From: Knoellia locipacati
GTDB lineage: Bacteria > Actinomycetota > Actinomycetes > Actinomycetales > Dermatophilaceae
Assembly (NCBI RefSeq): GCF_007992835.1
Contig: NZ_BKBA01000003.1
Span: 496,001-560,000, forward strand
Length of the DNA stretch: 64,000 nt
Reading direction: 5' to 3'
The position numbers and the translations under genes were made by a program. Under the pieces are notes generated by a model that worked only from the letters and a program-made list of their open reading frames with translations, searched no databases and had not been told where the DNA came from. Shown piece by piece: positions 16,450-37,820 of this stretch; position 1 is the stretch's first letter, and each line of letters opens with the position of its first letter.

Positions 16450-16862
16450 ACCGGTTCGTCGAGGCGCAGGACGCCGGGGGCACGTATGCCGCAGCGCTCG
16501 CCGAGCTGCGTCGAGGACGCAAGACGAGCCACTGGATGTGGTTCGTCCTCCCGCAGGTCGCCGGTCTCGGTCGCAGCGAGATGGCGCAGAGGTATGCCGT
16601 GTCGGGGTTGGACGAAGCGCGCGCCTATCTCGCGGATCCCGTTCTCGGACAGCGGTTGCGAGAGTGCGCCCAGGTGCTGCTCGAGCTGCCGGGTTCGGAT
16701 CCCGTGGCCGTGTTCGGGAGCATCGACGCGGTGAAGCTGCGGTCGTCGATGACCCTGTTCTCGCGCGCTGCGGAGGCCGAGCTCGACCGCGCGCTGTTTG
16801 ACGGCGTGCTCGACAGGTACTTCGACGGCGAGGCGGACCCGGCGACCCTCGAACTGCTCTGA
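16440..16862 (+). CDS. DUF1810 family protein
   Basis: A 140-residue cytosolic protein of the DUF1810 (YjbR-neighbouring calpastatin-like) family, recognised from NRFVEAQDAGGTY, the strongly conserved KTSHWMWFVLPQVAGLGRS and FGSIDAVKLRSSMTLFS. Function is unknown. The GTG at 16440 has GAGGTG 6 nt upstream; it overlaps the crotonase stop, so translation is coupled. A GTG at 16431 is an alternative. It contains two copies of the GTATGCCG octamer within 115 bp. Confidence 0.85.
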   Translation: MGLNRFVEAQDAGGTYAAALAELRRGRKTSHWMWFVLPQVAGLGRSEMAQRYAVSGLDEARAYLADPVLGQRLRECAQVLLELPGSDPVAVFGSIDAVKLRSSMTLFSRAAEAELDRALFDGVLDRYFDGEADPATLELL

Positions 16863-16884
16863 CCCCTCCCTGCTCGCGCCGGAG

Positions 16885-17724
16885 TCAGCTCGTCCCGGCG
16901 CCACGGGCGCGCGCCAGGATCGCTTCGGCCCGAAGCAGGACCGGCCGGTCGACGAACTCGCCGTCCACGCTCGAGGCGCCCTCTCCCGCACCCGAACCCG
17001 TGACGCTGCGGGCCCAGGCCAGCTCGGCACCAGTGGGCAGCAGCGCCTCGTGGACGACCGCCACCTGGCGCGGGTGGATGCAGAGCTTGCCGGTGAATCC
17101 CGACGCCACCGCGGAGCGGGTGGCTCGGGTCGTCTCGTCGTCGTCGGTGATCGCGGTCGCAACGCCGTCCACCGGCGGCGGCAGCGAGGCGGCGGCCGAC
17201 GCCACGACGAGGGCGAAGCGGGCCGGCCCCAGCCTGCGGTCGTCGTCGGGTGACAGGCCGAGCTGGGCGCAGAGGTCGAGATGTCCGAAGGCGAGGCGGA
17301 GCACGCCGGGAGCCTCCGCCACCTCCCGGACATCGAGGAGCCCGGCCGCCGTCTCCAGCAGGGGAATCGTGCCGGAGCCCGCGGGCAGCAGCGCCCTGAC
17401 CTCGGCCAGCACCCCGGCGCTCTCGGCCTTGGGCACCATGACCACGAGCGGGTGGCCCACACCGGCCAGGGCGGTGAGCTCGCCCTCCACGCCGTCGGTG
17501 TTGACCCGGACGACGACCGGGGGCCCACCCGCATCCGCACCTCGCTCCGCGAGGAAGGCGACGACGTTCGCGAGGGCGTCGCGCTTGTGCGGCGGCGCGA
17601 CGGCGTCCTCGAGGTCGAGCACGACCGCGTCCGCGCCGCTCGCCATCGCCTTGGCGAAGCGGTCCGGCCGGTCGCCGGGTACGAAGAGGAACGTCCGCGC
17701 CGTGGTCACGCCCTCGACGCTCAC
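16885..17724 (-). CDS. CitE-like CoA-ester lyase (HpcH/HpaI family), candidate citramalyl/beta-methylmalyl-CoA lyase
   Basis: A 279-residue TIM-barrel lyase of the CitE/malyl-CoA lyase group. RTFLFVPGDRPDRFAKAM and ADAVVLDLEDAVAP (metal-binding acidic residues) near residues 10 and 35, VPKAES near 125 and the C-terminal KLCIHPRQVAVVHE are all family landmarks. Such enzymes cleave 3-hydroxy-3-methylacyl or malyl-type CoA esters to acetyl-CoA plus an oxoacid, using Mg2+. It overlaps the acyl-CoA dehydrogenase stop by four bases. With the Mct-like and Meh-like genes at 25.4 and 33.2 kb a citramalyl-CoA substrate is attractive, but this is inference. Confidence 0.82.
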   Translation of the reverse strand: MSVEGVTTARTFLFVPGDRPDRFAKAMASGADAVVLDLEDAVAPPHKRDALANVVAFLAERGADAGGPPVVVRVNTDGVEGELTALAGVGHPLVVMVPKAESAGVLAEVRALLPAGSGTIPLLETAAGLLDVREVAEAPGVLRLAFGHLDLCAQLGLSPDDDRRLGPARFALVVASAAASLPPPVDGVATAITDDDETTRATRSAVASGFTGKLCIHPRQVAVVHEALLPTGAELAWARSVTGSGAGEGASSVDGEFVDRPVLLRAEAILARARGAGTS

Positions 17725-18917
17725 CGGCGGCCAGCGTCCTCGAGCAGCCGGCGGCCGATGATCATCTTCTGGATCTCGGCCGTGCCCTCGCCGATGAGCA
17801 GCATGGGGGCCTCGCGGTAGAGGCGCTCGATCTCGTACTCCTTGGAGTACCCGTAGCCGCCGTGGATGCGGAAGCTCTGCTCGACCACGTCGGCGCAGTA
17901 CTCCGCCGCGAGGTACTTCGCCATCCCGGCCTCGAGGTCGTTGCGCCTGCCGGCGTCCTTGATGCGGGCGGCCTTGACCATCATCTGGTGGGCGGCCTCG
18001 ACCTTGGTCGCCATGTCGGCGAGCCGGAAGAGGATGCCCTGGTGCTGGGCGATCTGCTTGCCGAAGGTCTCACGCTGCTGCGCGTAGGCGATGCCGAGCT
18101 CGAAGGCCCGCATCGAGACGCCGCACGCGCGGGCCGCGACGTTGACCCGGCCCACCTCGACGCCGTCCATCATCTGGTAGAAGCCCTTGCCGGGCACCCC
18201 ACCGAGGATCTGGGTCTCGGGAGCCCGGTGGCGCTCGAGGACGAGCTCGGTCGTGTCGACGCCCTTGTAGCCCATCTTGTCGATCTTGCCGGGGACGGTG
18301 ATCCCCTGCGCCGTCTCGCCGAAGCCCGGCTCCTTCTCGACGAGGAAGGTCGTCATGTTCTTGTAGGGGCTGTCGCTCTCGCCGAGGTCGGTGCGCACGA
18401 GGACGGCGACGAGGTTGGACGAGCCACCGTTGGTGAGCCACATCTTCTGACCGGTGACCACCCACTCGTCACCATCCTTGACGGCCTTGGTGCGGATGGC
18501 GGCGACGTCGGACCCGAGCCCCGGCTCCGACATCGAGAACGCACCCCGGACCTCGCCCGTGGCCATCCGCGGCAGGTAGCGCTGCTTCTGCTCCTCGGTG
18601 CCGTGCTGCAACAGCATGTACGCCACGATGAAGTGCGTGTTGATGATGCCGCTCACCGACATCCAGCCGCGCGCGATCTCCTCCACGCACAGCGCATAGG
18701 TGAGCAGCGACTCCCCCAGGCCGCCGTACTCCTCGGGGATCATCAGCCCGAAGATCCCCATCTCCTTCATGCCCTCGACGATGTCCGTGGGGTACTCGTC
18801 GGCGTGCTCGAGGTCCTGCGCGACCGGGATGATCTGCTCCTCGACGAACTGCCGCACGAGCTTGACGAGCTCGCTCTGCTCGTCGGTCAGGCCGTCGGTC
18901 TGTTGGAGTCTGGACAT
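17721..18917 (-). CDS. Acyl-CoA dehydrogenase (with CitE-like lyase)
   Basis: A 398-residue flavoprotein that oxidises acyl-CoA to enoyl-CoA. Family motifs are GLMIPEEYGGLGES, FSMSEPGLGSDVAAIRTKA, WLTNGGSSNLVAVL and the C-terminal RIHGGYGYSKEYEIERLYR; the Glu in the last helix region (LLIGEGTAEIQ) is where short-chain enzymes keep the catalytic base. The gene overlaps the CitE-like lyase, an arrangement resembling mycobacterial fadE19-citE-type loci. A strong hairpin separates it from the upstream binding-protein gene, so it may have its own promoter in 18918-18972. Confidence 0.88.
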   Translation of the reverse strand: MSRLQQTDGLTDEQSELVKLVRQFVEEQIIPVAQDLEHADEYPTDIVEGMKEMGIFGLMIPEEYGGLGESLLTYALCVEEIARGWMSVSGIINTHFIVAYMLLQHGTEEQKQRYLPRMATGEVRGAFSMSEPGLGSDVAAIRTKAVKDGDEWVVTGQKMWLTNGGSSNLVAVLVRTDLGESDSPYKNMTTFLVEKEPGFGETAQGITVPGKIDKMGYKGVDTTELVLERHRAPETQILGGVPGKGFYQMMDGVEVGRVNVAARACGVSMRAFELGIAYAQQRETFGKQIAQHQGILFRLADMATKVEAAHQMMVKAARIKDAGRRNDLEAGMAKYLAAEYCADVVEQSFRIHGGYGYSKEYEIERLYREAPMLLIGEGTAEIQKMIIGRRLLEDAGRR

Positions 18918-18972
18918 CTCGTGGGTACCTTCTCGCGATCGGTCGGTCGTGCGGCGCTGGGCGGGTGTGGGA

Positions 18973-19013
18973 GACGCGGGTACGCGCGCTTCGGGAGCGC
19001 CCGTACCCGCGTC
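18973..19013 (-). terminator. Strong hairpin after the ABC binding-protein gene
   Basis: GACGCGGGTACG (18973-18984) pairs perfectly with 19002-19013, and the loop contains a further GCGCT/AGCGC stem. It follows the solute-binding-protein stop by about 12 bp in the leftward direction. There is no U-tract. It could end the long catabolic operon or act as an attenuator before the dehydrogenase-lyase pair. Confidence 0.65.
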
Positions 19014-19024
19014 CGTTCGTGGGG

Positions 19025-20179
19025 TCAGCCGACGTAGTTGAAGGCCTTGTTCCAGGTCGCGACGTCGGACTTGCCGAACTTCACCGCGTCCTCGGGGGTG
19101 TAGAGCTTGAACGCGTCGGAGTCCGCGGCGGGGAGCTGGTACTCACCGGTCTTCTGCGGCTCCAGACCGGGACGGGCCGGGACGAAGCCCTGCGCGGCGG
19201 CGAACTTCTGTCCGGCCTTGGACATCGTCCAGTTGACGAACACCTTGGCGGCCGGGCTCTTGGCACCCTCAGGCGTGAGGCCCATGAGGTTGAACGACCC
19301 GGAGATGCCGTCCTCGGGCACGACGAGCTTGATCGGCGCGCCGGCGACCTCGGCACCGTAGGTGCTGTTGAAGCCGAGCGTGGCCACGGCGATCTCGCCA
19401 CGGGCCAGCGCCTCGAGCTGCACCGAGGTGGTGTCGAAGATGCGCGGCTTGAGCGCACCGAGCTTGGCCAGGTAGTCCTCACCGAACTCCGTGATGTGCA
19501 TGTGGGCCAGGGCCGTCACGGTGCCGCCGGCACCGGCGTTGACGACGCCGAGCTTGCCCTGCCACTTGGGGTCGGCAAGGTCCTCCCACTTCTTCGGGAC
19601 GTCCGCGCCCTTGACGAGCTGGGAGTTGTAGCCGAAGACGTAGGCCGAGTAGTAGGCCGTGAGGTACTGGCCCTTGTTGAAGACGACGTTGTCGGCCTTG
19701 CTCAGCTCAGCGAACGACGGAGGCTCGTATGCCGTGTAGACCCCCTTGGCGGCGAAGTCCTCCGCGACGCGCGGGTCGGTGACGCGGACGACGCCGGCCT
19801 TGAGCTGTCCGGCACCCTGCTCACTGAGGACGCGCTCGGCGAGCTTGTTGGTCGGCATCCGGGTGAGCTCGATGTCGATCCCGGTCTCTGCCTTGAAGCG
19901 CGCGACCGTGAGGTCCTCGCTCTCCTTGCCCGACGCCGAGTAGAGGTTGACCTTGTCGGTCTTCGCCGCCTCGAACAGCGCCTTGTCGGCGACCTGCTCG
20001 CCGTCGATGACGAGCCCGTCGGTCGTCTCGACCTTGGGCATGGCCAGGAGCTCGTCGCCCCCGGCGGCCTTGGCTGCGGCGCCGCCGGACGTCGTGGCCG
20101 AGCCGGAGCCGCCGCATCCGGCGAGTGCGATGGCGGCACTGGTGGCGACGGCAGCCATCGCCAGTCTGCGGTTGATCAT
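19025..20179 (-). CDS. ABC transporter solute-binding lipoprotein (FbpA/AfuA-like family)
   Basis: A 384-residue lipoprotein: basic start, hydrophobic stretch and lipobox ALAGC near residue 21, then a Gly/Ala/Ser linker. The mature domain looks like group-1 iron/AEP-type binding proteins (VNLYSASGKES, FKAETGIDIELTRMPT, WEDLADPKWQGKLG, LVVPEDGISGSFNLMGL). A Tyr-Tyr pair in LTAYYSAYVFGY falls where FbpA holds iron, but the rest of the iron site is not obvious. Its place at the end of a CoA-catabolic operon argues that it may bind an organic acid. It carries a GTATGCCG copy. Confidence 0.85.
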   Translation of the reverse strand: MINRRLAMAAVATSAAIALAGCGGSGSATTSGGAAAKAAGGDELLAMPKVETTDGLVIDGEQVADKALFEAAKTDKVNLYSASGKESEDLTVARFKAETGIDIELTRMPTNKLAERVLSEQGAGQLKAGVVRVTDPRVAEDFAAKGVYTAYEPPSFAELSKADNVVFNKGQYLTAYYSAYVFGYNSQLVKGADVPKKWEDLADPKWQGKLGVVNAGAGGTVTALAHMHITEFGEDYLAKLGALKPRIFDTTSVQLEALARGEIAVATLGFNSTYGAEVAGAPIKLVVPEDGISGSFNLMGLTPEGAKSPAAKVFVNWTMSKAGQKFAAAQGFVPARPGLEPQKTGEYQLPAADSDAFKLYTPEDAVKFGKSDVATWNKAFNYVG

Positions 20180-20227
20180 GGGAATCTCCTCGTTGAGATG
20201 GGACGTGGTGCGGCGGAACCGTCGCGG

Positions 20228-22015
20228 TCAGTGGTTGTTCAGCCCGCCACGCGAGCCGAGCAGGCGTGGGAGGCAGGAAAGGACGAACATGATCAGGCAG
20301 TAGATGAGGCTCATGGCTGCCGCCTGCTGCAGCGCACCGCCGTTCTCGAACTGGTCGAAGATCGCGATGGAGAGGATCCGGGTGTCGTTCGTGTAGAGGA
20401 ACAGCGGAACCGTGAGCTCACGCATGCTGAGCATGAGCAGGATGAGGAAGGTCGAGGTCAGTCCGACCTTCATCAGGGGGACCGTGATCGCGGTGATGGC
20501 CCGCGCCCGGTGCGCACCGTGGAGCACGGCACTGTCCTCGAGGTCCTTGTCGGTCGACTGGATCGAGGCGGCGATGCCACGCAGACCCTGGGGCATCTGG
20601 ACCGCGAGGAACGCGATGACCATCACCCAGAGGGTCCCGTAGAGCGGGATGGGCATGACGAGCCAGGTCCACAGCAGGCCGATGCCCAGGACGATCGCGG
20701 GGATCGCGAGCGGAACCATCGAGACGCCCTCGAGCAGGCCACGGGCCCGCGCCCTCGTGCGGTAGACGATGTAGGCCACGAGGAACGCGAGCACGGTCCC
20801 GCCCGCTGCCGAGAGCAGGGCGACGACGACGCTGTTGCCCGCCGCGGTGAGGAAGACGTCCGAGCGCGCCACGGTCCCGAAGGACGACGCGTCGAGCGCT
20901 CCGGGCGCGGTGAGGTCGCGGAACGAGCTCATGTAGGGCGAGGTGCGCATGGCGGTGAGGAACAGCGCGAGGATCGGCAGGGCGATGGCGATGAGGAAGT
21001 AGCCGGTGGCCACGACGAACAGCGGCCAGCGCAGGTGCCCCAGGTCGACCTTGCGGGCCTTGACGCCCTTGCCGGAGACCGTCGTGTAGGCGCGGCGCGA
21101 GAGCAGCACGCGCTGGGTCCACGTGATGACGAGGATGAAGACGACGAGCAGGATCGCCACCGACGACGCCTCGTTGCCGCGGGAGGGAGAGGCGTTCATC
21201 AGCCGGTAGATGAAGGTGGGGAGGGTGTCGATCTGGCCCGGGCTGGCGAGCACCTGCGCGACCGGGAAGTTCTCGAGCACGTGGGTGAAGATCAGGAGCG
21301 CGGAGCCGACGATCGCCGGCATCGCCAGCGGGAACGTCACCGTGCGCAGGGTGCGCCACTGCGACCCGCCGTGCACGGCCGACGCGTCCTCGAGGTCAGG
21401 GTTCATGAGCGACATCGACGAGTGGATGAGCAGGAAGGCGTAGGGCGCGTAGAACACCGCCATCACCATGACGACGCCGGGGATTGAGTAGATGTCGACG
21501 AACCCGGTGAGGCCCAGGTCTCGCAGCCCGATGTTGAGAAGGCCCGCTGCCGGGCTGCCGAGGATCGACCAGGCCAGCGCCCCGACGTAGGACGGCAGGA
21601 ACAGCGGCATGAGGCCGAAGAGGTAGACCAGCCCCTTGAAGGGGATGTTCGTGCGGGCCGTCGTGAACGCGAGGAACCCGCCGATGGCGAGCGCCAGCAC
21701 CGTCGACAGGGTCGCGATGAGGAGCGAGTTCAGGGTCGCCCTCGTCACCCCGGGCTCACCGAGGACCGCGAAGTTGCCGACCGTGAGGTCGAGCGAGATC
21801 GAGCCGGGACGAGGGACCGTCTCGCTGAACGCCGCGAGCAGCACGAAGCCGGCGGGGACGAGGATGAGGAAGCCCATCACGAGCAGCATCACGCCGCTGC
21901 TGCGCCACCCGCCTCGCCCGCTGCGCTGCTTCCGGCCACCGGAGGAGGGCGTGGGCGAGCCGGGCGTCGTCGGCGCACCCAGGTCGGTGGGGGCGCGCAT
22001 CTCGGTGACGCTCAC
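20228..22015 (-). CDS. ABC transporter fused permease (two MetI-like domains)
   Basis: A 595-residue membrane protein with two tandem six-helix permease domains, as in FbpB/ThiP-type importers. After a polar 50-residue N-terminus come the first core (TLNSLLIATLSTVLALAIGG, EAA loop around LEDASAVHGGSQWRTLRTVT) and the second (GNSVVVALLSAAGGTVLAFL, EAA loop LEDSAVLHGAHRARAITAIT). Both EAA loops retain the conserved Gly. GTG at 22015 overlaps the ATPase stop (GTGA). It partners the flanking ATPase and binding protein. Confidence 0.88.
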   Translation of the reverse strand: MSVTEMRAPTDLGAPTTPGSPTPSSGGRKQRSGRGGWRSSGVMLLVMGFLILVPAGFVLLAAFSETVPRPGSISLDLTVGNFAVLGEPGVTRATLNSLLIATLSTVLALAIGGFLAFTTARTNIPFKGLVYLFGLMPLFLPSYVGALAWSILGSPAAGLLNIGLRDLGLTGFVDIYSIPGVVMVMAVFYAPYAFLLIHSSMSLMNPDLEDASAVHGGSQWRTLRTVTFPLAMPAIVGSALLIFTHVLENFPVAQVLASPGQIDTLPTFIYRLMNASPSRGNEASSVAILLVVFILVITWTQRVLLSRRAYTTVSGKGVKARKVDLGHLRWPLFVVATGYFLIAIALPILALFLTAMRTSPYMSSFRDLTAPGALDASSFGTVARSDVFLTAAGNSVVVALLSAAGGTVLAFLVAYIVYRTRARARGLLEGVSMVPLAIPAIVLGIGLLWTWLVMPIPLYGTLWVMVIAFLAVQMPQGLRGIAASIQSTDKDLEDSAVLHGAHRARAITAITVPLMKVGLTSTFLILLMLSMRELTVPLFLYTNDTRILSIAIFDQFENGGALQQAAAMSLIYCLIMFVLSCLPRLLGSRGGLNNH

Positions 22016-23151
22016 GCCGCTGCTCCCGTGTCTCCCGCTGCGGGCGCGGCGGCATCCGTCGCGGGTGCGGGGGTGTCGTCGGGGAGCACCGAGACCGCAG
22101 CCTCGGGCACCTCCACGACGACCGGGGTGTCGGGGGCGAGCACCACCGGGTCGAGCGAGACGACATCGAGGTCGGGCCCGCCGTCGATGCTCACCTGGTA
22201 GCGCACCGACGAGCCCTGGTAGACCGCGACGCGCACCTTCCCAGCGAGCCGGTTCGCACGCGAGGTGAGCTCGTCGGCGCGCTCCGCGTCGTGCACGGTG
22301 ACCGCCTCGGGACGCACGGCGACGCTGATCGGTCCGTCCGGGACGGGGTGGGAGCTGCGCAGCGCGACCGAGTGCCCCTCGAGCCGCAGGCCGAGGTCGC
22401 CACCCCGCTCGACGGGGAAGACGTTGGTGACGCCGAGGAACGTCGCGATCGACGCGGTCGCCGGTGCCCGGTAGATCTCCTGCGGGGTGCCGAGCTGCTG
22501 GATGCGACCGGACTGCATGATCGCGATCCGGTCCGCGAGCGCCAGCGCCTCCTGCTGGTCGTGCGTGACGTAGAGGCTGGTCAGCCCGCGCTCGAGCTGG
22601 ATCCGGCGCAGCTCGACCCGCAGGTCGTCGCGAAGCCGGGCGTCGAGGTTGGACAGCGGCTCGTCGAGCAGCAGGACGCTCGGCTCCATGGCGATGCTGC
22701 GCGCGAGCGCGACCCGCTGCATCTGGCCACCGGACAGCTGGCTGGCCCCACGGTGGGCGAGGTGGGCCAGGCCGACGAGCTCGAGGACGTTGAAGGCCTT
22801 GGCCCGCGAGAGGGTGCGGTTCTGGCCCTTCATCCGCAGCGGGAACGCGACGTTCTCGATGACCGTCTTGTGGGGCCACACGGCATACGACTGGAAGACC
22901 ATCCCGACGTTGCGCTTGTGCGACGGGACACTCTTGCCCGAGTCGCCGTCGAACACGGCGCGGTCACCGATGGCGATCCGGCCGGCACTCGGCGTCTCGA
23001 GGCCGGCGACGCAGCGCATGGTGCTCGTCTTGCCGCAGCCCGACTGACCGAGGAGCACGATCGACTCCCCGTCGCCGATGGCGAGGTCGAGGTCCTGGAC
23101 GGCACTCACGCCTCCATAGGAGAGGGAGAGGCCCTCGATGGTCACGTTCAT
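22012..23151 (-). CDS. ABC transporter ATP-binding protein (FbpC/PotA-like)
   Basis: A 379-residue ATPase. Walker A is GQSGCGKTST near residue 38, the Q-loop is FQSYAVWPH, the signature is LSGGQMQRVALARS and Walker B VLLLDEPLSNLDARLR; a C-terminal TOBE-like regulatory domain (from about residue 250) ends in an acidic tail. ATG at 23151 follows AAGGAAC and is preferred to the longer frame that would start in the preceding gene. It lies 43 bp after the acyl-CoA synthetase gene and is most likely co-transcribed. Confidence 0.9.
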   Translation of the reverse strand: MNVTIEGLSLSYGGVSAVQDLDLAIGDGESIVLLGQSGCGKTSTMRCVAGLETPSAGRIAIGDRAVFDGDSGKSVPSHKRNVGMVFQSYAVWPHKTVIENVAFPLRMKGQNRTLSRAKAFNVLELVGLAHLAHRGASQLSGGQMQRVALARSIAMEPSVLLLDEPLSNLDARLRDDLRVELRRIQLERGLTSLYVTHDQQEALALADRIAIMQSGRIQQLGTPQEIYRAPATASIATFLGVTNVFPVERGGDLGLRLEGHSVALRSSHPVPDGPISVAVRPEAVTVHDAERADELTSRANRLAGKVRVAVYQGSSVRYQVSIDGGPDLDVVSLDPVVLAPDTPVVVEVPEAAVSVLPDDTPAPATDAAAPAAGDTGAAA

Positions 23152-23194
23152 GGTTCGTTCCTTCCCGGTCGGCATGGCTTCGGTGTGGGGACCA

Positions 23195-29284: not shown

Positions 29285-30666
29285 GCGGTCTCCTGGGTCG
29301 TGGTGCGGAAGGGGTTCGGGGTGGCCAGACCGGCCAAGGCGGCGTCGAGGCCACCGCGGGGCACGTCGGCGAGTGAGCCGACGACGTCGCGGACGGCCGC
29401 GAGCCCGGCGACGGGGTCGACGCCCGCGACGGCGAAGCATCCGGCGGCCTTGGCCGCCAGCAGCGCGTCGTCCATCGGCTCCTGCGGCGAGCCGAGCATC
29501 GGGGCCGTGCCCGAGACCGTGAGGCCGTCGGCGGTGTGCAGGTCGACGGTCGCCGGGACCATCTCGCTCGTCTCGGGCTGGTCCTGGTGGACGACGACAC
29601 GGGTGGCCAGCGCCTCGACCTCGGGGTCGAGCAGGTCCGGGCCGGCGACGGTGCGCAGGTCGAGCCGTCCGGTGACGACGTGGGCGGCGACGAGCCAGGG
29701 GATCGAGAACTGGGCGTCGACGATGGGGGCGCCCCGACGGGCGAACGGCCGCGAGACCATCGCGTACCCGGCGCCTGAGGGGACGTGCACCTCGGCGCGG
29801 TCCACGGTGGCGCCCGCAGGCAGCGAGGCCAACGCACGGCTCGTCGCCGTGATGGCCGAGTGCGTGTAGCGGCAGGCCGGGTAGGGCTTGAGCGAGAGGC
29901 GAGCGCCCTCCCAGCCCGGAGCCAGCAGCACGTCGAGGTCGGGCTCGGTCGCCGCGAGGCTCGCGATGCCGTACTCCCCGTCGAGCCAGCCGACCGGGCC
30001 GGAGACGCCTGCGCGAGCGAGGTAGGCCGCGGTGATGCCGGCCTGCACGGCCAGCCCCGGCTGGAGGCGCTTGTTGGTGGCGCTGTCGGCGACGACCTGG
30101 CGGCTGTGGCGGGAGCCCGCGGACGGGAGCACGAGCGAGACGGCGTGGCCGAGCTGCTCGGGCGTCAGGCCGAGGGTGCGCGCCGCGGCAGCTGCTGCGG
30201 CGAGCGCACCGAGGCCCGCGGTGCGGATCATGCCGTGCTGGGGGCCGACGAGCCGGGAGAGCCGTGCGAGCACCTGGACGCCGACGACGAACCCGTCGAG
30301 GACGTCCGCGCCGGAACGACCCTCGCGCAGACCCACGGCCAGTGCGGCCGGCAGCGCCACCGCACTCGTGTGGACGACGGCCTCGTCGTGGGTGTCGTCG
30401 AAGTCCCACGCGTGGATGAGGGCGGACATCGCGAGCCCAGCCTGCGGCACGTCCAGCTGGAGGTCGGTCCACGGGACGGGCACCTCGCCCTCCCCGAGAC
30501 CGGCCAGGGCCGCCACGGTCTCGCGCACGCCCTCGGCCTGCGCACCGGCACTGGCGATCGACAGCGCGTCGACGAGCAGGCGGGTCAGCGCCTCCTGCTC
30601 CGACACGTCCAGGTCGAAGGCACGTCGAGCGGCCAGGTCCTCGGTCCACGCTCTCGCCATGTCCAT
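29269..30666 (-). CDS. MmgE/PrpD family protein, paralogue 2
   Basis: A 465-residue MmgE/PrpD protein, the first gene of the leftward operon. It keeps the signature HAWDFDDTHDEAVVHTSAVA near residue 85 and KPYPACRYTHSAI near residue 255, the pair that contributes to the active site. It differs enough from the neighbour at 26.7-28.1 kb that the two probably act on different substrates or form a heteromer. The 16-bp overlap with the dehydrogenase gene implies coupled translation. Its promoter faces the hydroxyacyl-CoA dehydrogenase gene across an operator-like palindrome. Confidence 0.85.
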   Translation of the reverse strand: MDMARAWTEDLAARRAFDLDVSEQEALTRLLVDALSIASAGAQAEGVRETVAALAGLGEGEVPVPWTDLQLDVPQAGLAMSALIHAWDFDDTHDEAVVHTSAVALPAALAVGLREGRSGADVLDGFVVGVQVLARLSRLVGPQHGMIRTAGLGALAAAAAAARTLGLTPEQLGHAVSLVLPSAGSRHSRQVVADSATNKRLQPGLAVQAGITAAYLARAGVSGPVGWLDGEYGIASLAATEPDLDVLLAPGWEGARLSLKPYPACRYTHSAITATSRALASLPAGATVDRAEVHVPSGAGYAMVSRPFARRGAPIVDAQFSIPWLVAAHVVTGRLDLRTVAGPDLLDPEVEALATRVVVHQDQPETSEMVPATVDLHTADGLTVSGTAPMLGSPQEPMDDALLAAKAAGCFAVAGVDPVAGLAAVRDVVGSLADVPRGGLDAALAGLATPNPFRTTTQETAWTSA

Positions 30667-30714
30667 GGGGTGCTCCTCCTCTGTCCGCCCCGTTGCGGTC
30701 AGATGCGACAGTAC

Positions 30715-30730
30715 ATACTCTATAGAGTGT
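30715..30730. promoter_or_regulatory. Operator-like palindrome A (shared GntR-type site)
   Basis: ATACTCTATAGAGTGT is a near-perfect 16-bp palindrome (perfect core ACTCTATAGAGT at 30717-30728) between the divergent MmgE/PrpD and hydroxyacyl-CoA dehydrogenase genes. The sequence TAYTCKATAGA recurs at 32430 and 34162, both also at cluster promoters, and is AT-rich in a region that is otherwise about 70% GC. Confidence 0.7.
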
Positions 30731-30755
30731 TGTCTACAGACCTTGAGGAGAAAAC

Positions 30756-31685
30756 ATGTCGCACCGTCAGGACGCCACCAACACCTGCTCCACGGAGCGG
30801 GTCGCGGTCGTCGGCGCCGGGATCATGGGCCGCGGCATCGCGCAGCTCTTCGCCACTGCAGGAGCCCGGGTGTCGCTCGTCGACTCCACCCCCGAGGCCG
30901 CCTCCGCCGGCCGGGACCGCATCGCCGCCGACCTGCGCCGCGCGGCCGAGCGCCGAGCCTCCCGGTCCGACGCGAGCAGCGCAGACGACGAGGTCGAGAG
31001 CGCCGAGCTCGTCCTCGGGCGCATCCGGGTCGCCGAGCTCGACGAGGCGGTGGCCGACGCCACGGCCGTGATCGAGGCCGTGCCCGAGATCCTCGACCTC
31101 AAGCGCGACCTCCTCGCCGACGTCGCCCGCACGGCACCCGCCGAGGCCCTCCTCACGACCAACACCTCCGCACTGCCGATCACCTCGATCGCCGCTGGCC
31201 TCCCGCAGCCCGAGCGCCTGGTCGGCCTGCACTTCTTCAACCCCGTCCACCGCATGCGCCTCGTCGAGGTCATCGCCGGCCTCGCCTCGGCCGAGGACAG
31301 CGTCCTGCGGGCCCGCGACCTCTGCGAGCGCGCGGGCAAGACCACGGTGCGCGTCGTCGACCGCCCGGGCTTCGTCGCCTCGCGGGTCAACGTGCTCATC
31401 GGCAACGAGGCCTTCCGGATGCTCACCGAGGGCGTGGCGACCGCCGACGAGATCGACATCGCGCTGACCCACGGCCTCAACCACCCGATGGGTCCGTTCG
31501 AGCTGATCGACCTCGTCGGGCTCGACACCCGCCTCTCCGTGCTGCGCTCGCTGCACGCCTCGCTGGGCGACCGCTTCCGGCCCGACCCCACGCACGTCAG
31601 CCTCGTCGAGGCCGGGAGGCTCGGCCGCAAGACCGGTCGTGGCGTCTACACCTACGACGACACGGGACGGAGGGTCGCGCCGTGA
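30756..31685 (+). CDS. 3-hydroxyacyl-CoA dehydrogenase
   Basis: A 309-residue NAD-dependent dehydrogenase that oxidises 3-hydroxyacyl-CoA in beta-oxidation. The Rossmann motif VAVVGAGIMGRGIAQLFA is at residue 13, the catalytic region shows TNTSALPITSIAAGLPQPER and HFFNPVHRMRLVEVI with the catalytic His and Glu, and the C-terminal helical domain has RPGFVASRVNVLIGNEAF and NHPMGPFELIDLVGLD. Length equals the stand-alone family (about 290-310). GAGGAG lies upstream of the ATG, and the stop overlaps the following crotonase as GTGA. Confidence 0.93.
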   Translation: MSHRQDATNTCSTERVAVVGAGIMGRGIAQLFATAGARVSLVDSTPEAASAGRDRIAADLRRAAERRASRSDASSADDEVESAELVLGRIRVAELDEAVADATAVIEAVPEILDLKRDLLADVARTAPAEALLTTNTSALPITSIAAGLPQPERLVGLHFFNPVHRMRLVEVIAGLASAEDSVLRARDLCERAGKTTVRVVDRPGFVASRVNVLIGNEAFRMLTEGVATADEIDIALTHGLNHPMGPFELIDLVGLDTRLSVLRSLHASLGDRFRPDPTHVSLVEAGRLGRKTGRGVYTYDDTGRRVAP

Positions 31686-32425
31686 CCGTCTCCCTCGTCC
31701 GCACCGCCGGCGTCGCACGGCTCGTGCTCGACCGCCCCGACAAGGGCAACGCCCTCAACGTCGAGATGTCCCGGGACATCCGGCACGCCCTCGACGAGGC
31801 CTCCCTCGAGCCGGGCGTCCTCGTCGTCGAGAGCTCGACCCCCGGCATGTTCGTCTCCGGCGCCGACATCGCGGACCTGCGACAGCGCACCCGCGTCGAG
31901 GCGCTGGCCCGGCTGAACCACAACCTCTTCCTCGCCCTCGAGGAGTATCCGTGGCCCACCGTGGCCGTCGTCGACGGACCCGCGCTCGGCGGTGGCTGCG
32001 AGCTCGCGCTGGCCTGCGACATGCGGGTCACGACGTCCCGCTCCACCTGGGGCCTGCCGGAGGTGACTCTGGGGATCATCCCGTCCGCGGGTGGTATGCA
32101 CCGGCTGCCACGCATCGTGGGCTGGGGCATCGCGAGCGAGCTCATCCTCTCGGGGCGCCGCATCGACGGCACCGAGGCCCACCGCATCGGGCTGGCCAAC
32201 CGGGTCTGCGAGCCCGACGACCTCGACGACGTCGTGGCAGGCCTGCTGCGCGACCTCGGCCGCGCCTCCCCCACTGCGACGCAGTACGCCAAGGAGGCCA
32301 TGCGCGCTCCTGCGGACCGGTCCCGGGTGGCCGACGCGGCCCTCCAGGCCCTCTGCTTCGAGAGCGACGACGCGCGGCAGCGCCTCGACGCCTTCCTCGA
32401 GAGGCGAGCACGCAGCCGTGCATAG
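31682..32425 (+). CDS. Enoyl-CoA hydratase/isomerase (crotonase) of the catabolic cluster
   Basis: A 247-residue crotonase. The oxyanion-hole strand is FVSGADIADLRQ and the second loop is VDGPALGGGCELALACDMRV; LPEVTLGIIPSAGGMHRLPR carries the Glu used in hydration (position of E. coli/rat crotonase Glu144 equivalent is Glu in PEVTLG). The GTG at 31682 overlaps the dehydrogenase stop and gives the standard N-terminus. Together the two proteins would carry out hydration and oxidation of an enoyl-CoA before thiolysis. Confidence 0.88.
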   Translation: MTVSLVRTAGVARLVLDRPDKGNALNVEMSRDIRHALDEASLEPGVLVVESSTPGMFVSGADIADLRQRTRVEALARLNHNLFLALEEYPWPTVAVVDGPALGGGCELALACDMRVTTSRSTWGLPEVTLGIIPSAGGMHRLPRIVGWGIASELILSGRRIDGTEAHRIGLANRVCEPDDLDDVVAGLLRDLGRASPTATQYAKEAMRAPADRSRVADAALQALCFESDDARQRLDAFLERRARSRA

Positions 32426-32429
32426 GATG

Positions 32430-32444
32430 TATTCGATAGACACC
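32430..32444. promoter_or_regulatory. Operator-like site B upstream of the GntR regulator
   Basis: TATTCGATAGACACC matches site A and site C over TAYTCKATAGA. It lies 39 bp before the regulator's GTG, a position for autoregulation. Confidence 0.65.
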
Positions 32445-32482
32445 ACCGGCCACGGTGGTCCGGGACGACGAGGGGATCGATC

Positions 32483-33178
32483 GTGACGGCGATGGACCAG
32501 GGGGCCGGACCGCCGCAGAGCCGGACGGCATACGTGCTCGAACGCCTCAAGGACGACCTCGCGAGCGGCGCCATCCAGCCCGGCGACGCGCTCAAGCAGA
32601 CGGTCATCGCGAAGCGCTACGGCGTGAGCCCCACCCCGGTGCGCGAGGCACTGCGCATCCTCGAGGCCGACGGCGCCGTGACCTACTCCCCCCACCGCGG
32701 CGCGAGCGTCCGCGAGATGTCGCCGACGGCGGCGGTCGACCTCTACCGGCTGCGCGCGGCCGTCGAGAGCACCGCCACCCAGATGGCCGTCGAGCGGATG
32801 ACGCCCGAAGGGCTCGCCGAGATCGAGGCCGAGCACCAAGCGCTCGTCGCCGCCCGCAAGAAGAGTGTCGACCCGGCCAGCCTGTCGATGATGAACCGGC
32901 GGCTGCACTTCACGATCTATGCGCAGAGCTCGCCGCTCGTCGTGCAGTACCTCGACCTGCTCTGGAGCCGCTTCACGCCCTCGACGACCATCTGGACCAA
33001 GGCGCACGCCGTGGACCTCGAGGAGGACCACGAGTCGATCATCGAGGCCATCCGGGCGGGCGACCCCGTCGAGGCCGCGCGCAGGATGTCCGAGCACATC
33101 CTGCGGTCCTCGCGCATCCGTGAGCAGGACCCGACGACCCGCGCCGAGGGGCACGACGAGCAGGCCGTCACCGGCTGA
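32483..33178 (+). CDS. GntR-family regulator with FCD domain
   Basis: A 231-residue FadR-like regulator. The winged helix-turn-helix occupies residues 12-80 (GDALKQTVIAKRYGVSPTPV then REALRILEADG) and the C-terminal FCD effector domain shows LYRLRAAVESTATQMAVERM, MNRRLHFTIYAQS and DHESIIEAIRAGD, whose Asp and His residues usually hold a metal that reads carboxylic-acid effectors. It lies inside the catabolic cluster and an operator-like site precedes it, so it is the obvious local regulator. GTG start at 32483 with GAGGGG upstream. Confidence 0.92.
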   Translation: MTAMDQGAGPPQSRTAYVLERLKDDLASGAIQPGDALKQTVIAKRYGVSPTPVREALRILEADGAVTYSPHRGASVREMSPTAAVDLYRLRAAVESTATQMAVERMTPEGLAEIEAEHQALVAARKKSVDPASLSMMNRRLHFTIYAQSSPLVVQYLDLLWSRFTPSTTIWTKAHAVDLEEDHESIIEAIRAGDPVEAARRMSEHILRSSRIREQDPTTRAEGHDEQAVTG

Positions 33179-33184
33179 TCGGCG

Positions 33185-34144
33185 TCAGGCTCCGGCGAGC
33201 GTGCCGGTGAGGACCAGCCGGCCCTCCTGCGCCCCGGTCACCTCCGCGGTCCCATCCGCCTCCCGCACCGAGAAGCTCACGGGCCGACCCATGTATGCCG
33301 GCCCGCGCAGCCTGAAGTCGTAGCGCGCCGTCGTGGGGGAAGGGACACCTGCGGCACGCACGGCCTCGAGGGCGAGCAGCGCCGTGAGTGGACCGTGCAC
33401 GAGCAGGTCTGCGTGACCCTCGACCCCCGTGGCGTACTCGCGGTCGTAGTGGATCCGGTGCGGGTTGTAGGTCAGCGCGCTGAACCGGAAGAGCATGACG
33501 GGGTCGGCCGTCACCTCCAGCGCGAGGTCGGCATCCGCGGTCGAGGGTGCCGGGTCCGCCGCAGCGCGCGGCGTCGCGGTCGCGCGGTCGGTGTCCGCGG
33601 GTGCGTCGTGGCGCAGGGCGACCCGACGCGTCTCCTCGAGGAACAGCCGCCCGTCCACGGCGTACCGGTGGGACTCGGTGATGATCATCAGCCAGCCGGT
33701 CCGGCCGGGGACGAGCCGGCAGTCCGTGACGCCGCTCGTCCTGGACACCTCGTCGCCGACGACGAACGGGTGGCGCTGGCTCAGCGTGGCCCCGGCATAG
33801 ACGCGCCGGCGGGGACGACGCCTGGGCATGAGGGCGTGTTCCTCGGCATGGCCGTCCTCCGCGACGCCGCCCGAGGCCAGCGGGTCCCGGAACCAGATCT
33901 CGTGCCAGCCGAGCGGGAGGTCGTCACCGACGACGAGGGCACCTCGCCCCAGGAGCCCGCCGAGCGCGCTCGCGCGCCACGGGTCGAGGACCGTGGCGGC
34001 GTCGAGGACGGGAGGTTCGAAGTCGGCGGCCATCTCCACGAGGACGTCCGGAGCGTCGCCCGGCACCTGCAGACGTCCCGGCCGCCACCACTGCCCGTCC
34101 ACGGGTTGGGCGGCTGCGTCGTGACCGGTCGTGGACGTCGTCAT
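33185..34144 (-). CDS. MaoC-like hotdog hydratase, close to mesaconyl-C4-CoA hydratase (Meh)
   Basis: A 319-residue double-hotdog protein of the COG3777/FAS1-like dehydratase type. The C-terminal hotdog has the group's hallmark FRFSALTYNPHRIHYDREYA followed by VEGHADLLVHGPLTALLAL; the N-terminal half (residues 60-190) has WFRDPLASGGVAEDGHAEE and GATLSQRHPFVVGDEVSRTS as in mesaconyl-C4-CoA hydratase of Chloroflexus. That enzyme forms citramalyl-CoA. ATG at 34144 follows GGGAG; the longer open frame is antisense to the thiolase gene. It is read towards the regulator gene, six bases apart. Confidence 0.78.
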   Translation of the reverse strand: MTTSTTGHDAAAQPVDGQWWRPGRLQVPGDAPDVLVEMAADFEPPVLDAATVLDPWRASALGGLLGRGALVVGDDLPLGWHEIWFRDPLASGGVAEDGHAEEHALMPRRRPRRRVYAGATLSQRHPFVVGDEVSRTSGVTDCRLVPGRTGWLMIITESHRYAVDGRLFLEETRRVALRHDAPADTDRATATPRAAADPAPSTADADLALEVTADPVMLFRFSALTYNPHRIHYDREYATGVEGHADLLVHGPLTALLALEAVRAAGVPSPTTARYDFRLRGPAYMGRPVSFSVREADGTAEVTGAQEGRLVLTGTLAGA

Positions 34145-34161
34145 CGTGCTACGTTCTCCCA

Positions 34162-34176
34162 TATTCGATAGTCTAT
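34162..34176. promoter_or_regulatory. Operator-like site C between hydratase and thiolase genes
   Basis: TATTCGATAGTCTAT contains the palindrome ATAGTCTAT and shares TAYTCKATAGA with sites A and B. It sits in the 48-bp space between the divergent start codons at 34144 and 34193. Confidence 0.65.
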
Positions 34177-34192
34177 AGAAAATGAGGAAGCG

Positions 34193-35407
34193 GTGCACGA
34201 GCACGACGTGGTGATCTGTGACCCCATCCGCACCCCGGTCGGCCGGTTCGGTGGTGGCCTCTCGACGGTGCCTCCAGAGTCGCTCGCCGCGACCGTCATC
34301 GCGGCCCTGGTCGAGCGCAACGACCTGCCGGGCGACGAGGTCGAGGACGTCATCCTCGGCCACGCCTACCCCACCTCCGACGCCCCGGCGATCGGTCGGG
34401 TGGCCGCCATGGACGCGGGCCTGCCCGAGGGCGTGCCGGGCATGCAGGTCGACCGCCGCTGCGGCTCCGGCCTCCAGGCCGTGATGCTCGGCGCCGCCCA
34501 GGTCGCCAGCGGTGCGGCCTCGCTCGTCATCGCCGGCGGCGCCGAGACGATGAGTCGCGCGCCGTTCTACAGCCACGAGCTTCGCGGCGGCCCGTCGGGC
34601 GCCGGCCTGCTGCTCCACGACTCGCTGGCCCGGGGACGGGTCACCGCCGGCGGCAAGGACCACCCCGTTCCCGGCGGGATGATCGAGACCGCCGAGAACC
34701 TGCGCCGCGAGTACTCCATCACCCGCGAGCGGCAGGACGAGTACGCCCTGATGTCGCAGCACCGCGCCGCCGCCGCCGTCGCCGCAGGGCGCTTCGACGA
34801 CGAGCTCGTCCCGGTGAGCGTGCCCGGGCGCAAGGGCCCGACCGTCGTCGACAGCGACGAGCACCCCCGCCCCGACACCACGCTCGAGGCCCTCGCGGCG
34901 CTCCGCCCGGTCATGGGGCGCACAGACGCCGAGGCGACGGTCACCGCCGGCAACAGCAGTGGCCAGAACGACGGCGGTGCCGCGTGCATCGTCACCACCG
35001 CGCAGCACGCCCGCGAGCTCGGACTCGACCCGATCGTCCGCGTCGTCTCCTGGGCTGTCGCCGGAACGCCGGCCGCGACGATGGGCATCGGGCCGGTGCC
35101 AGCCTCCGCCGTGGCGCTGGCGCGCGCTGGTGTCGAGATGGACGACGTCGGCCTCATCGAGATCAACGAGGCCTTCGCCGCGCAGGTGCTCGCCTGCCTC
35201 GACGAGTGGAAGCTCGGCCCCGGCGACCTGGACCGGGTCAACGTCAACGGGTCCGGCATCTCGCTCGGGCACCCCGTCGGGGCCACCGGCGGGCGCATCC
35301 TCTGCACACTCGCCCGAGAGATGCGCAGGCGCGACGTCCGCTACGGTCTCGAGACCATGTGCATCGGTGGCGGCCAAGGCATCGCAGCGCTCTTCGAGCT
35401 GGTGTGA
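34193..35407 (+). CDS. Thiolase (acetyl-CoA acyltransferase)
   Basis: A 404-residue thiolase that splits 3-oxoacyl-CoA with CoA to acetyl-CoA or acts in reverse. The nucleophile is Cys90 in DRRCGSGLQAVMLG; the second-cysteine region is MCIGGGQGIAALFE near residue 390, and the His motif is NVNGSGISLGHPVGATGG near 350. Length is normal. GTG at 34193 follows GAGGAAG. It completes the beta-oxidation set with the crotonase and dehydrogenase upstream, and the next gene overlaps its stop. Confidence 0.93.
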   Translation: MHEHDVVICDPIRTPVGRFGGGLSTVPPESLAATVIAALVERNDLPGDEVEDVILGHAYPTSDAPAIGRVAAMDAGLPEGVPGMQVDRRCGSGLQAVMLGAAQVASGAASLVIAGGAETMSRAPFYSHELRGGPSGAGLLLHDSLARGRVTAGGKDHPVPGGMIETAENLRREYSITRERQDEYALMSQHRAAAAVAAGRFDDELVPVSVPGRKGPTVVDSDEHPRPDTTLEALAALRPVMGRTDAEATVTAGNSSGQNDGGAACIVTTAQHARELGLDPIVRVVSWAVAGTPAATMGIGPVPASAVALARAGVEMDDVGLIEINEAFAAQVLACLDEWKLGPGDLDRVNVNGSGISLGHPVGATGGRILCTLAREMRRRDVRYGLETMCIGGGQGIAALFELV

Positions 35408-36618
35408 GCAGCAGGCCCGCAGCCTCGTCGACCGGGCCGTCGAAGGCCCGGTCCTTCGTGTTCCTGTGCGTGGTCACCGCGGCCCTGCACGCGGCATACA
35501 GCGCGGTTCGCGTCCTCGTCTCCTACCGGGCCCTCGACCTCGGTGGTGACGCGGTCGCGATCGGCGTCATCACCGCGCTCTTCGCCCTGCTCCCCCTCTT
35601 CGTCGCGCTCCAGGTCGGACGGGCCGTGGACCGCGACCGCGCCGGCACCTTCCTGCAGGCCGGCCTCGTCCTCACCGCCCTCGCGGTCGGCGTCATCACC
35701 GTCAGCGGCAACCTCGTCTGGCTCGGGGTGGGCAACGTGCTGCTCGGCTTCGGGCAGATACTCGCCATGGTGGCGGCGCAGGGCTTCGTCCCCGTCCTCG
35801 CAGAGCCGAACTCGCTGGACCAGCGTTTCGCGGCGTGGACCCTGAGCGTCTCCGTCGGCCAGACCATCGGGCTCCCCGTGGCCGGGCTCGTGAGCGCCTG
35901 GGGCGGCGGCGCGCGTGACGCGGCCACCACCCGCGCGCTCGTCGCCCTCCTCGTCCTGCTCGTCCTCGCTGCGCCCCTGGCGTTCCTGCTGCGCAACCCC
36001 GCGACCACCGCCCGTGAGGGGGACGAGGGGCCGCAGTCCCTGGCGACGATGCTCGTCATCCCCGGCATGGGACCGGCGGTGCTCAGCAGCCTCGCGGTGC
36101 TCACGTCGATGGACCTCGTCGCGGCCTACCTGCCCGTCCTCGGGGAGGAGCACGGGTTCACGGTCCTGCTCGTGACGATCCTCATCGCGGTCCGCACCGG
36201 CTCGTCCGTGCTGTCGCGCGCCTTCCTGCCGCTGCTGCTCCGCCACGTCACCCGAGCGCGGCTGCTCGTCTCCGCGACCCTCTGCTCCGGCGTCCCGATG
36301 GCTCTGCTGCCCTTCACGTCGTCGCCCGTCGTCATGGGCGCGATGCTTGCGGTCGCCGGCTTCTTCTGGGGCATCGGGCAGCCGCTGACGATGAGCTGGG
36401 TCGTCGGGCTCGTGACCGATCGCAACCGCGCCTCCGCACTCGGGCTGCGCCTCACCGGCAACCGGATCGGCCAGTTCATCGTGCCGCTCGGTGCGAGCGC
36501 GGCGGCCGGTGCCGCCGGCGTGGGCTCGGTCTTCCTCGCCAACGGCGCCCTGCTCCTCGGGTCGGCGTTCGTCACCTGGTCGTCCCTGCGGTCACGCCTG
36601 TCGAGCCCCTCGGACTAG
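35404..36618 (+). CDS. MFS transporter
   Basis: A 404-residue twelve-helix major facilitator protein. The loop after helix 2 has VGRAVDRDRAGTF in the position of motif A, and the second half contains IAVRTGSSVLSRAFLPLLL. GTG at 35404 overlaps the thiolase stop (GTGA), so it belongs to the catabolic unit and may import or export an acid related to the pathway. The longer frame to 34984 is a shadow of the thiolase. Substrate unknown. Confidence 0.85.
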   Translation: MSSRPAASSTGPSKARSFVFLCVVTAALHAAYSAVRVLVSYRALDLGGDAVAIGVITALFALLPLFVALQVGRAVDRDRAGTFLQAGLVLTALAVGVITVSGNLVWLGVGNVLLGFGQILAMVAAQGFVPVLAEPNSLDQRFAAWTLSVSVGQTIGLPVAGLVSAWGGGARDAATTRALVALLVLLVLAAPLAFLLRNPATTAREGDEGPQSLATMLVIPGMGPAVLSSLAVLTSMDLVAAYLPVLGEEHGFTVLLVTILIAVRTGSSVLSRAFLPLLLRHVTRARLLVSATLCSGVPMALLPFTSSPVVMGAMLAVAGFFWGIGQPLTMSWVVGLVTDRNRASALGLRLTGNRIGQFIVPLGASAAAGAAGVGSVFLANGALLLGSAFVTWSSLRSRLSSPSD

Positions 36619-36692
36619 GCGCGGCACCCGGCACCGTATGCCGTCCACGCTCCCCCGGTATCGTCTGCGCACGTGCGGGGCTTCCCCGCTCG

Positions 36693-36768
36693 GGGCCTCT
36701 AGCTCAACGGTTAGAGCTGCGGACTTTTAATCCGTAGGTTGTGGGTTCGAATCCCACGGGGCCCACCA
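36693..36768 (+). tRNA. tRNA-Lys (UUU)
   Basis: Folds as a 76-nt tRNA with encoded CCA. Acceptor GGGCCTC (36693-36699) pairs with GGGGCCC (36758-36764); the D stem is GCTC/GAGC; the anticodon arm is GCGGACTTTTAATCCGT with anticodon TTT; the T arm is GTGGGTTCGAATCCCAC. A TATCGT -10-like box lies at 36659-36664. Confidence 0.95.
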
Positions 36769-37755: not shown

Positions 37756-37820
37756 CCTGCGCCGCGGCCTCCCCGGGTTTCACCTCGATCGCGCACGAGG
37801 TGCAGGGCCGCGCCCCGGCC

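Follow-up and report, generated by a model that had tools for sequence, protein, structure and literature searches.

A 16-gene genomic island of Knoellia locipacati with a CoA transferase of the Mct clade: a candidate pathway for branched dicarboxylates

Knoellia locipacati (Actinomycetota; Dermatophilaceae) carries a cluster of 16 genes within positions 496,001 to 560,000 of contig NZ_BKBA01000003.1 (assembly GCF_007992835.1), a stretch of 64,000 nucleotides referred to here as the window. These genes fill an island of their own and may encode a self-contained route that degrades a dicarboxylate longer than C5, methyl-branched or carrying another substituent at position 2, a reading to which we assign a probability of roughly 0.4. 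Among its members is a family III CoA transferase (CaiB) that belongs to the clade of Mct (2-methylfumaryl-CoA isomerase), an enzyme type studied so far mainly in CO2-fixing bacteria, and which is proposed to shift CoA from C1 to C4 intramolecularly. In the pathway as we envisage it, the substrate would be imported by an ATP-binding cassette (ABC) system and/or a major facilitator superfamily (MFS) carrier, the free acid would be adjusted by MmgE/PrpD proteins, and an ADP-forming synthetase would attach CoA. At least one round of ordinary beta-oxidation would follow, by acyl-CoA dehydrogenase, crotonase, 3-hydroxyacyl-CoA dehydrogenase and thiolase. Thiolysis beside the branch would leave CoA on the wrong carboxyl, as 2-methylsuccinyl-C1-CoA, and the Mct-type transferase would relocate it to C4 within the same molecule. 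The acyl-CoA dehydrogenase ACD2 would form mesaconyl-C4-CoA, before or after the CoA shift, a hydratase of the itaconyl-CoA/mesaconyl-C4-CoA type (Ich/Meh) would produce citramalyl-CoA, and a lyase of the (S)-citramalyl-CoA type (Ccl) would split the latter into acetyl-CoA and pyruvate.

The window belongs to a 3.59-Mb genome in 19 contigs, and comparison of its flanks with eight congeners delimits an accessory insertion at window positions ~16863-36653 (~19.8 kb), which contains every cluster gene and has no counterpart in any of the eight. The distance between the flanks, 19.8 kb in the window, is 4, 6, 6, 16, 41, 98, 431 and ~1311 bp in the congeners, where the upstream flank aligns up to window positions 16858-16866 and is followed by the tRNA-Lys region starting at ~36654. 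The 5' edge is placed just past a stop codon common to the congeners (a core frame ending at ~16862), the 3' edge in the promoter region of tRNA-Lys, and the cluster, from the lyase (16885) through the MFS carrier (36618), lies just inside these limits. Since the insertion runs from a shared stop codon to a tRNA promoter region, the 16 genes were probably gained together, or lost together by the congeners. The cluster is more than a chance grouping: the span given to it in a first-pass annotation of this DNA (16885-36618) fits the insertion, and much of it recurs at a locus of another genus of the same family (L044). The island has a GC content of 72.0%, against 71.1% for the remainder of the window. 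No convincing terminal repeats were found at the junctions or among the 20 repeat families listed out of 46, and no integrase at the junctions or among the island genes put through family scans. At E <= 1e-60 the transferase is matched in none of the eight congeners (18 candidates scored per genome, from a first look that gave up to 25), in 7 of the 98 genomes from the family and order and in 15 of the 346 from the phylum, both counts including the window genome. A nearby crotonase gene (15550-16449) was rejected as a cluster member, its position being outside the insertion and 6/8 congeners having it as well. The tRNA-Lys gene resembles a hotspot, for congeners differ too in the length of the DNA on its downstream side (window 36768-38400).

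The genes were called by GC per codon position together with family scans (Pfam, NCBIfam), and are collected in Table 1. Family scans and matches to solved structures agree with the Mct-like, Meh-like and CitE-like genes that the first-pass annotation had placed in one cluster, and the companions it named (importer, synthetase, two MmgE/PrpD proteins, two acyl-CoA dehydrogenases, beta-oxidation enzymes, MFS carrier and GntR regulator) were all found. Import of 2-aminoethylphosphonate was rejected as a role of the ABC system (best model 65 bits, cut-off 310).

Table 1. Genes of the island, with window coordinates, strand and basis of assignment
Feature	Position	Strand	Basis
(S)-citramalyl-CoA lyase-like CitE protein, Ccl type	16885-17724	-	Pfam HpcH_HpaI; NCBIfam RipC_Ccl 148 bits (cut-off 375)
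Acyl-CoA dehydrogenase ACD1, FadE3-like	17721-18917	-	Family scans
ABC importer solute-binding protein, SBP_bac_6 type	19025-20179	-	Family scans
ABC importer fused permease	20228-21892, start approximate	-	Family scans
ABC importer ATPase with TOBE domain	22012-23151, start approximate	-	Family scan; 62% to L044 frame
ADP-forming acyl-CoA synthetase	23195-25393	-	Family scans; 58% to L044
Family III CoA transferase (CaiB), Mct clade	25390-26670	-	Pfam CoA_transf_3; NCBIfam TIGR04253; tree; residues
MmgE/PrpD protein A	26667-28052	-	Family scan; residue alignment
Acyl-CoA dehydrogenase ACD2	28049-29284	-	Family scans; 79% to L044
MmgE/PrpD protein B, divergent	29269-30666	-	Family scan; residue alignment
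3-Hydroxyacyl-CoA dehydrogenase	30756-31685	+	Family scans
Enoyl-CoA hydratase/isomerase (crotonase)	31682-32425	+	ECH_1, 159 bits
GntR/FCD regulator	32483-33178	+	Family scans
Itaconyl-CoA/mesaconyl-C4-CoA hydratase-like protein (Ich/Meh)	33185-34144	-	8khg match; sub-threshold Pfam
Thiolase, PRK06205 type	34193-35407	+	Family scans
MFS carrier	35404-36618, start approximate	+	Family scans

The best NCBIfam model of the transferase is TIGR04253 (2-methylfumaryl-CoA isomerase), with 384 bits, and among solved chains it scores 369 and 364 bits to the Chloroflexus-type Mct structures 8apq and 7xkg, the first non-Mct chain following at 102. A quick tree, with 121 rows, unites 119 Mct-like rows including true Mct in a clade (Shimodaira-Hasegawa-like approximate likelihood ratio test, SH-aLRT, 100) apart from the itaconate CoA transferase Ict; of 117 loci in all, one fragment (L051) below the 380-bit cut was left out. 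The CaiB protein thus groups with Mct and not with the Ict exchange transferase, the phylogenetic check on which the first-pass annotation had made its assignment depend, with an outgroup of two rows only, both on long branches. The window transferase falls in a 30-row sub-clade (29 others; SH-aLRT 97) whose named members are Actinomycetota. Arg47, Asn100 and Asp165 are invariant in 119/119 Mct-like rows and Tyr136 is found in 118/119; the catalytic Asp165 and the mesaconate-carboxylate ligands Arg47 and Tyr136 are all present in the window protein. In Mct, Arg47 and Tyr136 are described as binding the free carboxyl of mesaconyl-CoA (PMC9813914), and Ict has Gly at position 47 and Leu at position 136. 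An Ict-type itaconate transferase was rejected on the basis of these residues, the separate clade and an identity of 28% over 263 residues to the CaiB protein (Ict) of the Pseudomonas aeruginosa cluster (L062, taken as PA0878-PA0886 from gene order). The window transferase also shares Asn100, Arg75 and Arg104 with Mct and, likewise, has no tetraglycine motif; it differs from it in sub-clade, in Leu43 (Pro) and Phe101 (Arg), and in being accompanied by a lyase of the Ccl type.

Some of these features weigh against a strict Mct role. The score of 384 bits is short of the TIGR04253 equivalog cut-off of 725 bits. Position 43 is a Leu/Ile "cork" that narrows the active-site mouth in the set of four intramolecular enzymes which PMC9813914 compares; Leu or Ile occupies it in 63/119 rows and in 0/29 of the other members of the window clade, the window protein having Pro. 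The replacement of Phe101 by Arg points in the same direction. Pro43 alone does not exclude an Mct role, because 6/27 loci linked to a methylsuccinyl-CoA dehydrogenase (MCD) also have Pro. The cork residue and the score under the cut-off would suit an ordinary intermolecular succinyl-CoA:dicarboxylate transferase, whose likeness to Mct would come from descent only. We regard this as quite unlikely, given the tree, the conserved Arg47 and Tyr136, and the adjoining synthetase gene, beside which a second activation would be redundant.

The hydratase frame (319 residues) is buried in a longer mechanical open reading frame, which as a whole has no Pfam match. Alone, it scores 126 bits to itaconyl-CoA hydratase 8khg and 20 bits to a FAS1-like dehydratase model of Pfam, under the cut-off of 22; it is closer to the hydratase of the P. 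aeruginosa cluster (37%, 131 bits) than to a Roseiflexus homologue (L105; 33%, 103 bits). The island lyase is 46% identical to the lyase of the P. aeruginosa cluster and scores 170 bits to acyl-CoA lyase 9nzb, versus 82 bits to malyl-CoA lyase 4l9y and 31 bits to 4l7z, which we take to be the Chloroflexus lyase. By sequence, both enzymes are nearer to Pseudomonas Ich and Ccl than to the Chloroflexota-type enzymes compared. The resemblance to three enzymes of the 3-hydroxypropionate bi-cycle, as originally read, stands for the transferase (Mct clade) and the hydratase (Ich/Meh type) and fails for the lyase, which at 31-82 bits is not of the malyl-CoA lyase type of that cycle. A point against the Ccl assignment itself is that the lyase falls short of the RipC_Ccl cut-off (148 against 375 bits). 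The tail from mesaconyl-C4-CoA through citramalyl-CoA to acetyl-CoA and pyruvate is known from the itaconate/methylsuccinate cluster of Pseudomonas and Cupriavidus, where MmgE/PrpD and acyl-CoA dehydrogenase accompany it (PMC12290011, PMC9875883). Of the possible new C5 route suggested in the first-pass annotation, the tail enzymes are present and the tail itself is already published; the cluster is coherent and newly bounded. Compared with the cluster of P. aeruginosa and Cupriavidus necator (ich, mcd, mmgE, ict, ccl), the island has homologues of Ich and Ccl, MmgE/PrpD neighbours, a dehydrogenase with a moved Glu (ACD2) and an importer (ABC, versus a tripartite ATP-independent periplasmic system, TRAP, in L062). 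It differs in that its CaiB protein belongs to the Mct clade and not to Ict and its MmgE proteins have no isomerase tyrosine, and it adds the ADP-forming synthetase, thiolase, 3-hydroxyacyl-CoA dehydrogenase, crotonase, a second MmgE and a second dehydrogenase.

In ACD2, Gly occupies the place of the usual catalytic Glu, and a Glu stands within the motif GVERIG (GVERMG in the L044 orthologue); the corresponding stretch is NAERT in the dehydrogenase from the P. aeruginosa cluster, which also lacks the usual Glu. We take GVERIG to be the helix G place of the Glu of isovaleryl-CoA dehydrogenase, an enzyme outside the ACD2 alignments. That enzyme has Ala in place of the usual Glu, whose role falls to the Glu of helix G (PMC5798300). 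PA0879 has been shown to be a methylsuccinyl-C4-CoA dehydrogenase (PMC12290011); ACD2 is 27% and ACD1 33% identical to the dehydrogenase of that cluster, and ACD2 has the same moved Glu. ACD2 would fit methylsuccinyl-C4-CoA, because this ester resembles isovaleryl-CoA with a carboxyl replacing one methyl. The NCBIfam list of ACD2 is topped by 3-sulfinopropionyl-CoA desulfinase (268 bits, cut-off 600); that function was rejected, with Asp/Glu found at Arg84/Gln246 in an alignment, judged by eye, to 5af7, presumably this desulfinase, in which both residues presumably have functional roles. ACD1 is FadE3-like (398 bits), MCD coming second at 301 bits. Its reading as a canonical MCD was rejected, which counts against the assembled pathway: relative to the signature residues of PMC5798300, Arg252, Ala285 and Phe287 are replaced by Thr, Phe and Met, and Arg376 by Lys, with Arg421 and Glu535 retained, and the N-terminal extension is absent. 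The first 118 residues of the MCD query have no match in the genome, where ACD1 is the best MCD match. At other loci, e.g., L040, L041 and L073, ACD1 adjoins an Mct-like CaiB gene.

MmgE A retains six of the seven residues listed for methylsuccinate isomerase in PMC12290011 (His88, Glu91, His102, His152, Lys202 and Lys266), with Trp in place of Tyr148. The absence of this catalytic tyrosine weakens its candidacy as methylsuccinate isomerase; given that the published epimerisation scheme uses a second base (PMC12290011), its step may instead be a dehydratase, decarboxylase or other one-base reaction. MmgE B (29269-30666) has lost His152 and has a gap at Tyr148, and may have another function or none. 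These losses are likewise points against the favoured scheme.

The substrate proposed by the first-pass annotation was an imported C5 acid. Methylsuccinate, mesaconate or itaconate would in that case be activated by the synthetase at either carboxyl, the Mct-type enzyme would even out the esters, and ACD2, Ich and Ccl would degrade them, leaving the beta-oxidation genes to serve otherwise. Every tail enzyme is present, the tail is that of the characterised itaconate/methylsuccinate pathway, and an acyl-CoA dehydrogenase gene sits between the two MmgE genes. Against it, the thiolase, crotonase and hydroxyacyl-CoA dehydrogenase genes lie within the same insertion, the thiolase being recurrent in the transferase clade, and MmgE A has Trp instead of Tyr148. 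Furthermore, the itaconate transferase of C. necator is reported to place CoA on C4 of methylsuccinate (>90% of the product; PMC12290011), so that the known route proceeds without Mct and free C5 acids need none. We consider a C5 substrate unlikely. The longer branched dicarboxylate fits better, as the island holds thiolase, hydroxyacyl dehydrogenase and crotonase genes and a C1-to-C4 shift would be required. Thiolysis of an ester resembling 4-methyl-3-oxoadipyl-CoA leaves CoA on C1, and Mct is required when CoA ends there, after such thiolysis or after MCD.

The CoA flip could also act on another 2-substituted succinate, that is, a larger alkylsuccinyl-CoA or a tricarboxylate such as tricarballylate, with the lyase giving acetyl-CoA and a 2-oxo acid other than pyruvate, which for a tricarboxylate would be oxaloacetate released from citryl-CoA. 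Leu43 and Phe101 are not conserved in the window clade, the MmgE/PrpD substrates described are substituted 1,4-dicarboxylates including tricarboxylates (PMC12290011), and ThnP, of another CoA-transferase family, is reported to transfer CoA intramolecularly on a bulky dicarboxylate (PMC11659651). On the other hand, the nearest solved relatives of the hydratase and the lyase belong to the itaconate pathway and some transferase relatives adjoin methylsuccinyl-CoA dehydrogenase, and we hold such a substrate to be improbable.

A further possibility, which we find highly improbable, is an anaplerotic shunt, in which mesaconyl-C1-CoA from the ethylmalonyl-CoA pathway would be diverted by Mct, Ich and Ccl to pyruvate and acetyl-CoA. 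The genome has a crotonyl-CoA carboxylase/reductase (592 bits, cut-off 379), and isocitrate lyase was not found in it; the island, however, is absent from 8/8 congeners and has its own importer, activation and regulator genes, and the N-terminal part of MCD is unmatched in the genome. Apart from the island, the crotonyl-CoA carboxylase/reductase gene (contig C16:244-1437, L169) and the isocitrate lyase result suggest that the ethylmalonyl-CoA pathway may operate in this organism, although no N-terminally extended MCD was found.

The favoured pathway can also be examined in the gene neighbourhoods of transferase relatives. A scan with Mct-like patterns gave at least 584 encoded relatives, of which the best 80 were taken with their flanks, and partner genes were scored with their own hidden Markov models within ~10 kb of the transferase. 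These models were seeded partly from plasmid loci, which makes the figures for 14 plasmids circular, and these are left out; the set of 80 loci and a second one of 23 are free of seeds, and one locus of the 29-locus clade (L056) was a thiolase seed. The controls were 20 regions at chosen positions of eight genomes of the window's phylum, the 80 loci including other phyla as well, and short contigs lower the neighbourhood counts. Among these best 80 relatives, Ich was found at 19 loci, Ccl at 21, both at 13, thiolase at 24, the N-terminally extended MCD-type dehydrogenase at 18 and any of Ich, Ccl or MCD at 40. The 20 control regions held one thiolase and none of the others (Ich 0, Ccl 0, both 0, MCD 0, any of the three 0). 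The corresponding counts in the 23 loci were Ich 6, Ccl 6, both 4, MCD 0, thiolase 9 and any of Ich, Ccl or MCD 8, and in the 29 others of the window clade Ich 11, Ccl 13, both 8, thiolase 15 and MmgE 7. Co-occurrence, which the first-pass annotation had put forward as a check across actinobacteria, is seen at half of the best 80 relatives (40/80, versus 0/20 controls), the other 40/80, some of them on short contigs, having none of the three within ~10 kb. The latter half is a point against the favoured pathway, as is the rarity among the relatives' loci of the importer binding protein (only L044) and of the ADP-forming synthetase (only L044, L058 and L085).

L044 is the nearest whole relative of the island, with identities of 79% for ACD2, 59% for MmgE, 58% for the synthetase, 61-62% for the three importer proteins, 49% for the transferase, 47% for the lyase and 63% for the thiolase, and it holds a hydratase-like frame in two pieces. 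L044 brings a crotonase of its own along with a short-chain dehydrogenase (SDR), yet the crotonases of both clusters are only 29% identical and the SDR is not truly similar to the window 3-hydroxyacyl-CoA dehydrogenase, which tells against an inherited common set. The beta-oxidation genes of both clusters are thus alike in kind and not common by descent, as judged by sequence. As both hold the same kinds of steps through different genes, beta-oxidation probably belongs to the pathway.

At other loci the transferase lies beside a methylsuccinyl-CoA dehydrogenase gene. In Pseudomonas migulae (L083, 8361-11266), the Mct-like transferase adjoins a gene whose product is identical, across all 555 residues, to (2S)-methylsuccinyl-CoA dehydrogenase of known structure (8ciw); genes for Ich, Ccl and thiolase are close by. 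On plasmid pSHV1 (L063) of Sphingobium herbicidovorans, a herbicide degrader, transferase, MCD (622 bits to 6es9), MaoC hydratase and lyase genes are consecutive. Both neighbourhoods are like the island in their Mct-like transferase, hydratase and lyase, and differ from it in their N-terminally extended MCD, whose extension is unmatched in the window genome. Plasmid pCADAB1 (L064), whose host degrades 4-chloro-2-methylphenoxyacetic acid (MCPA), carries a transferase-MCD pair together with pcaIJ and pcaF; no Ich or Ccl is annotated beside the pair, after which come a hypothetical gene and then, beyond the start of the record, a gene for a transposase. The pairs on pSHV1 and pCADAB1 are a possible end for methylsuccinyl-CoA from MCPA. 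The part of the pCADAB1 paper considered discusses pcaIJ and pcaF without mention of the transferase-dehydrogenase pair (PMC3877037). In K. locipacati itself, a 4-methylcatechol ortho route is weakened as a candidate, with one intradiol-dioxygenase match at 27.8 bits (cut-off 27.3).

Genes for Mct are described in PMC6593406 as uncommon, with a disjunct distribution. We tentatively suggest, as a rather doubtful generalisation, that Mct may be an offshoot of a large heterotroph family of dicarboxylyl-CoA flip enzymes and not mainly autotrophic. Such enzymes, combined with Ich, Ccl and a dehydrogenase of the MCD or ACD2 type, might form a general terminal module in which methylsuccinyl-CoA derived from methyl-branched dicarboxylates and from methyl-substituted aromatics (perhaps the methyl end of MCPA) is burned to acetyl-CoA and pyruvate, the island being its transport-to-pyruvate version. 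If true, this would give the Mct enzyme type a heterotrophic role and methylsuccinyl-CoA a possible end in aerobic catabolism, provide a compact, well-bounded gene set for work on C5 CoA esters, and turn an annotation suggesting CO2 fixation into a testable catabolic pathway. The closest analogy in logic is ThnP/ThnO of anaerobic naphthalene degradation, described as combining beta-oxidation, an intramolecular CoA move, a dehydrogenase, a hydratase and a lyase proposed to act at a tertiary alcohol, with ThnP being a family I transferase and the island enzyme family III (PMC11659651). A Brevibacterium gene list names, as in the island, Mct, Meh and two mmgC (acyl-CoA dehydrogenases), and also fumB and another transporter (dctP/dctM), by annotation only and with no proposed function in the part concerned (PMC12467314). 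Except for that annotation list, an Mct-type step in a heterotrophic, importer-bearing island is undescribed in the open-licence literature covered, and among titles and abstracts on methylsuccinyl-CoA with methyl-3-oxoadipate, methyladipate or MCPA none ties Mct to such a route.

Upstream of the island, at window positions 4699-14551, lies a phosphate-related block that comprises polyphosphate kinase, a PBP-type binding protein, PstB, a PHO4 carrier and a PhoU-like protein.

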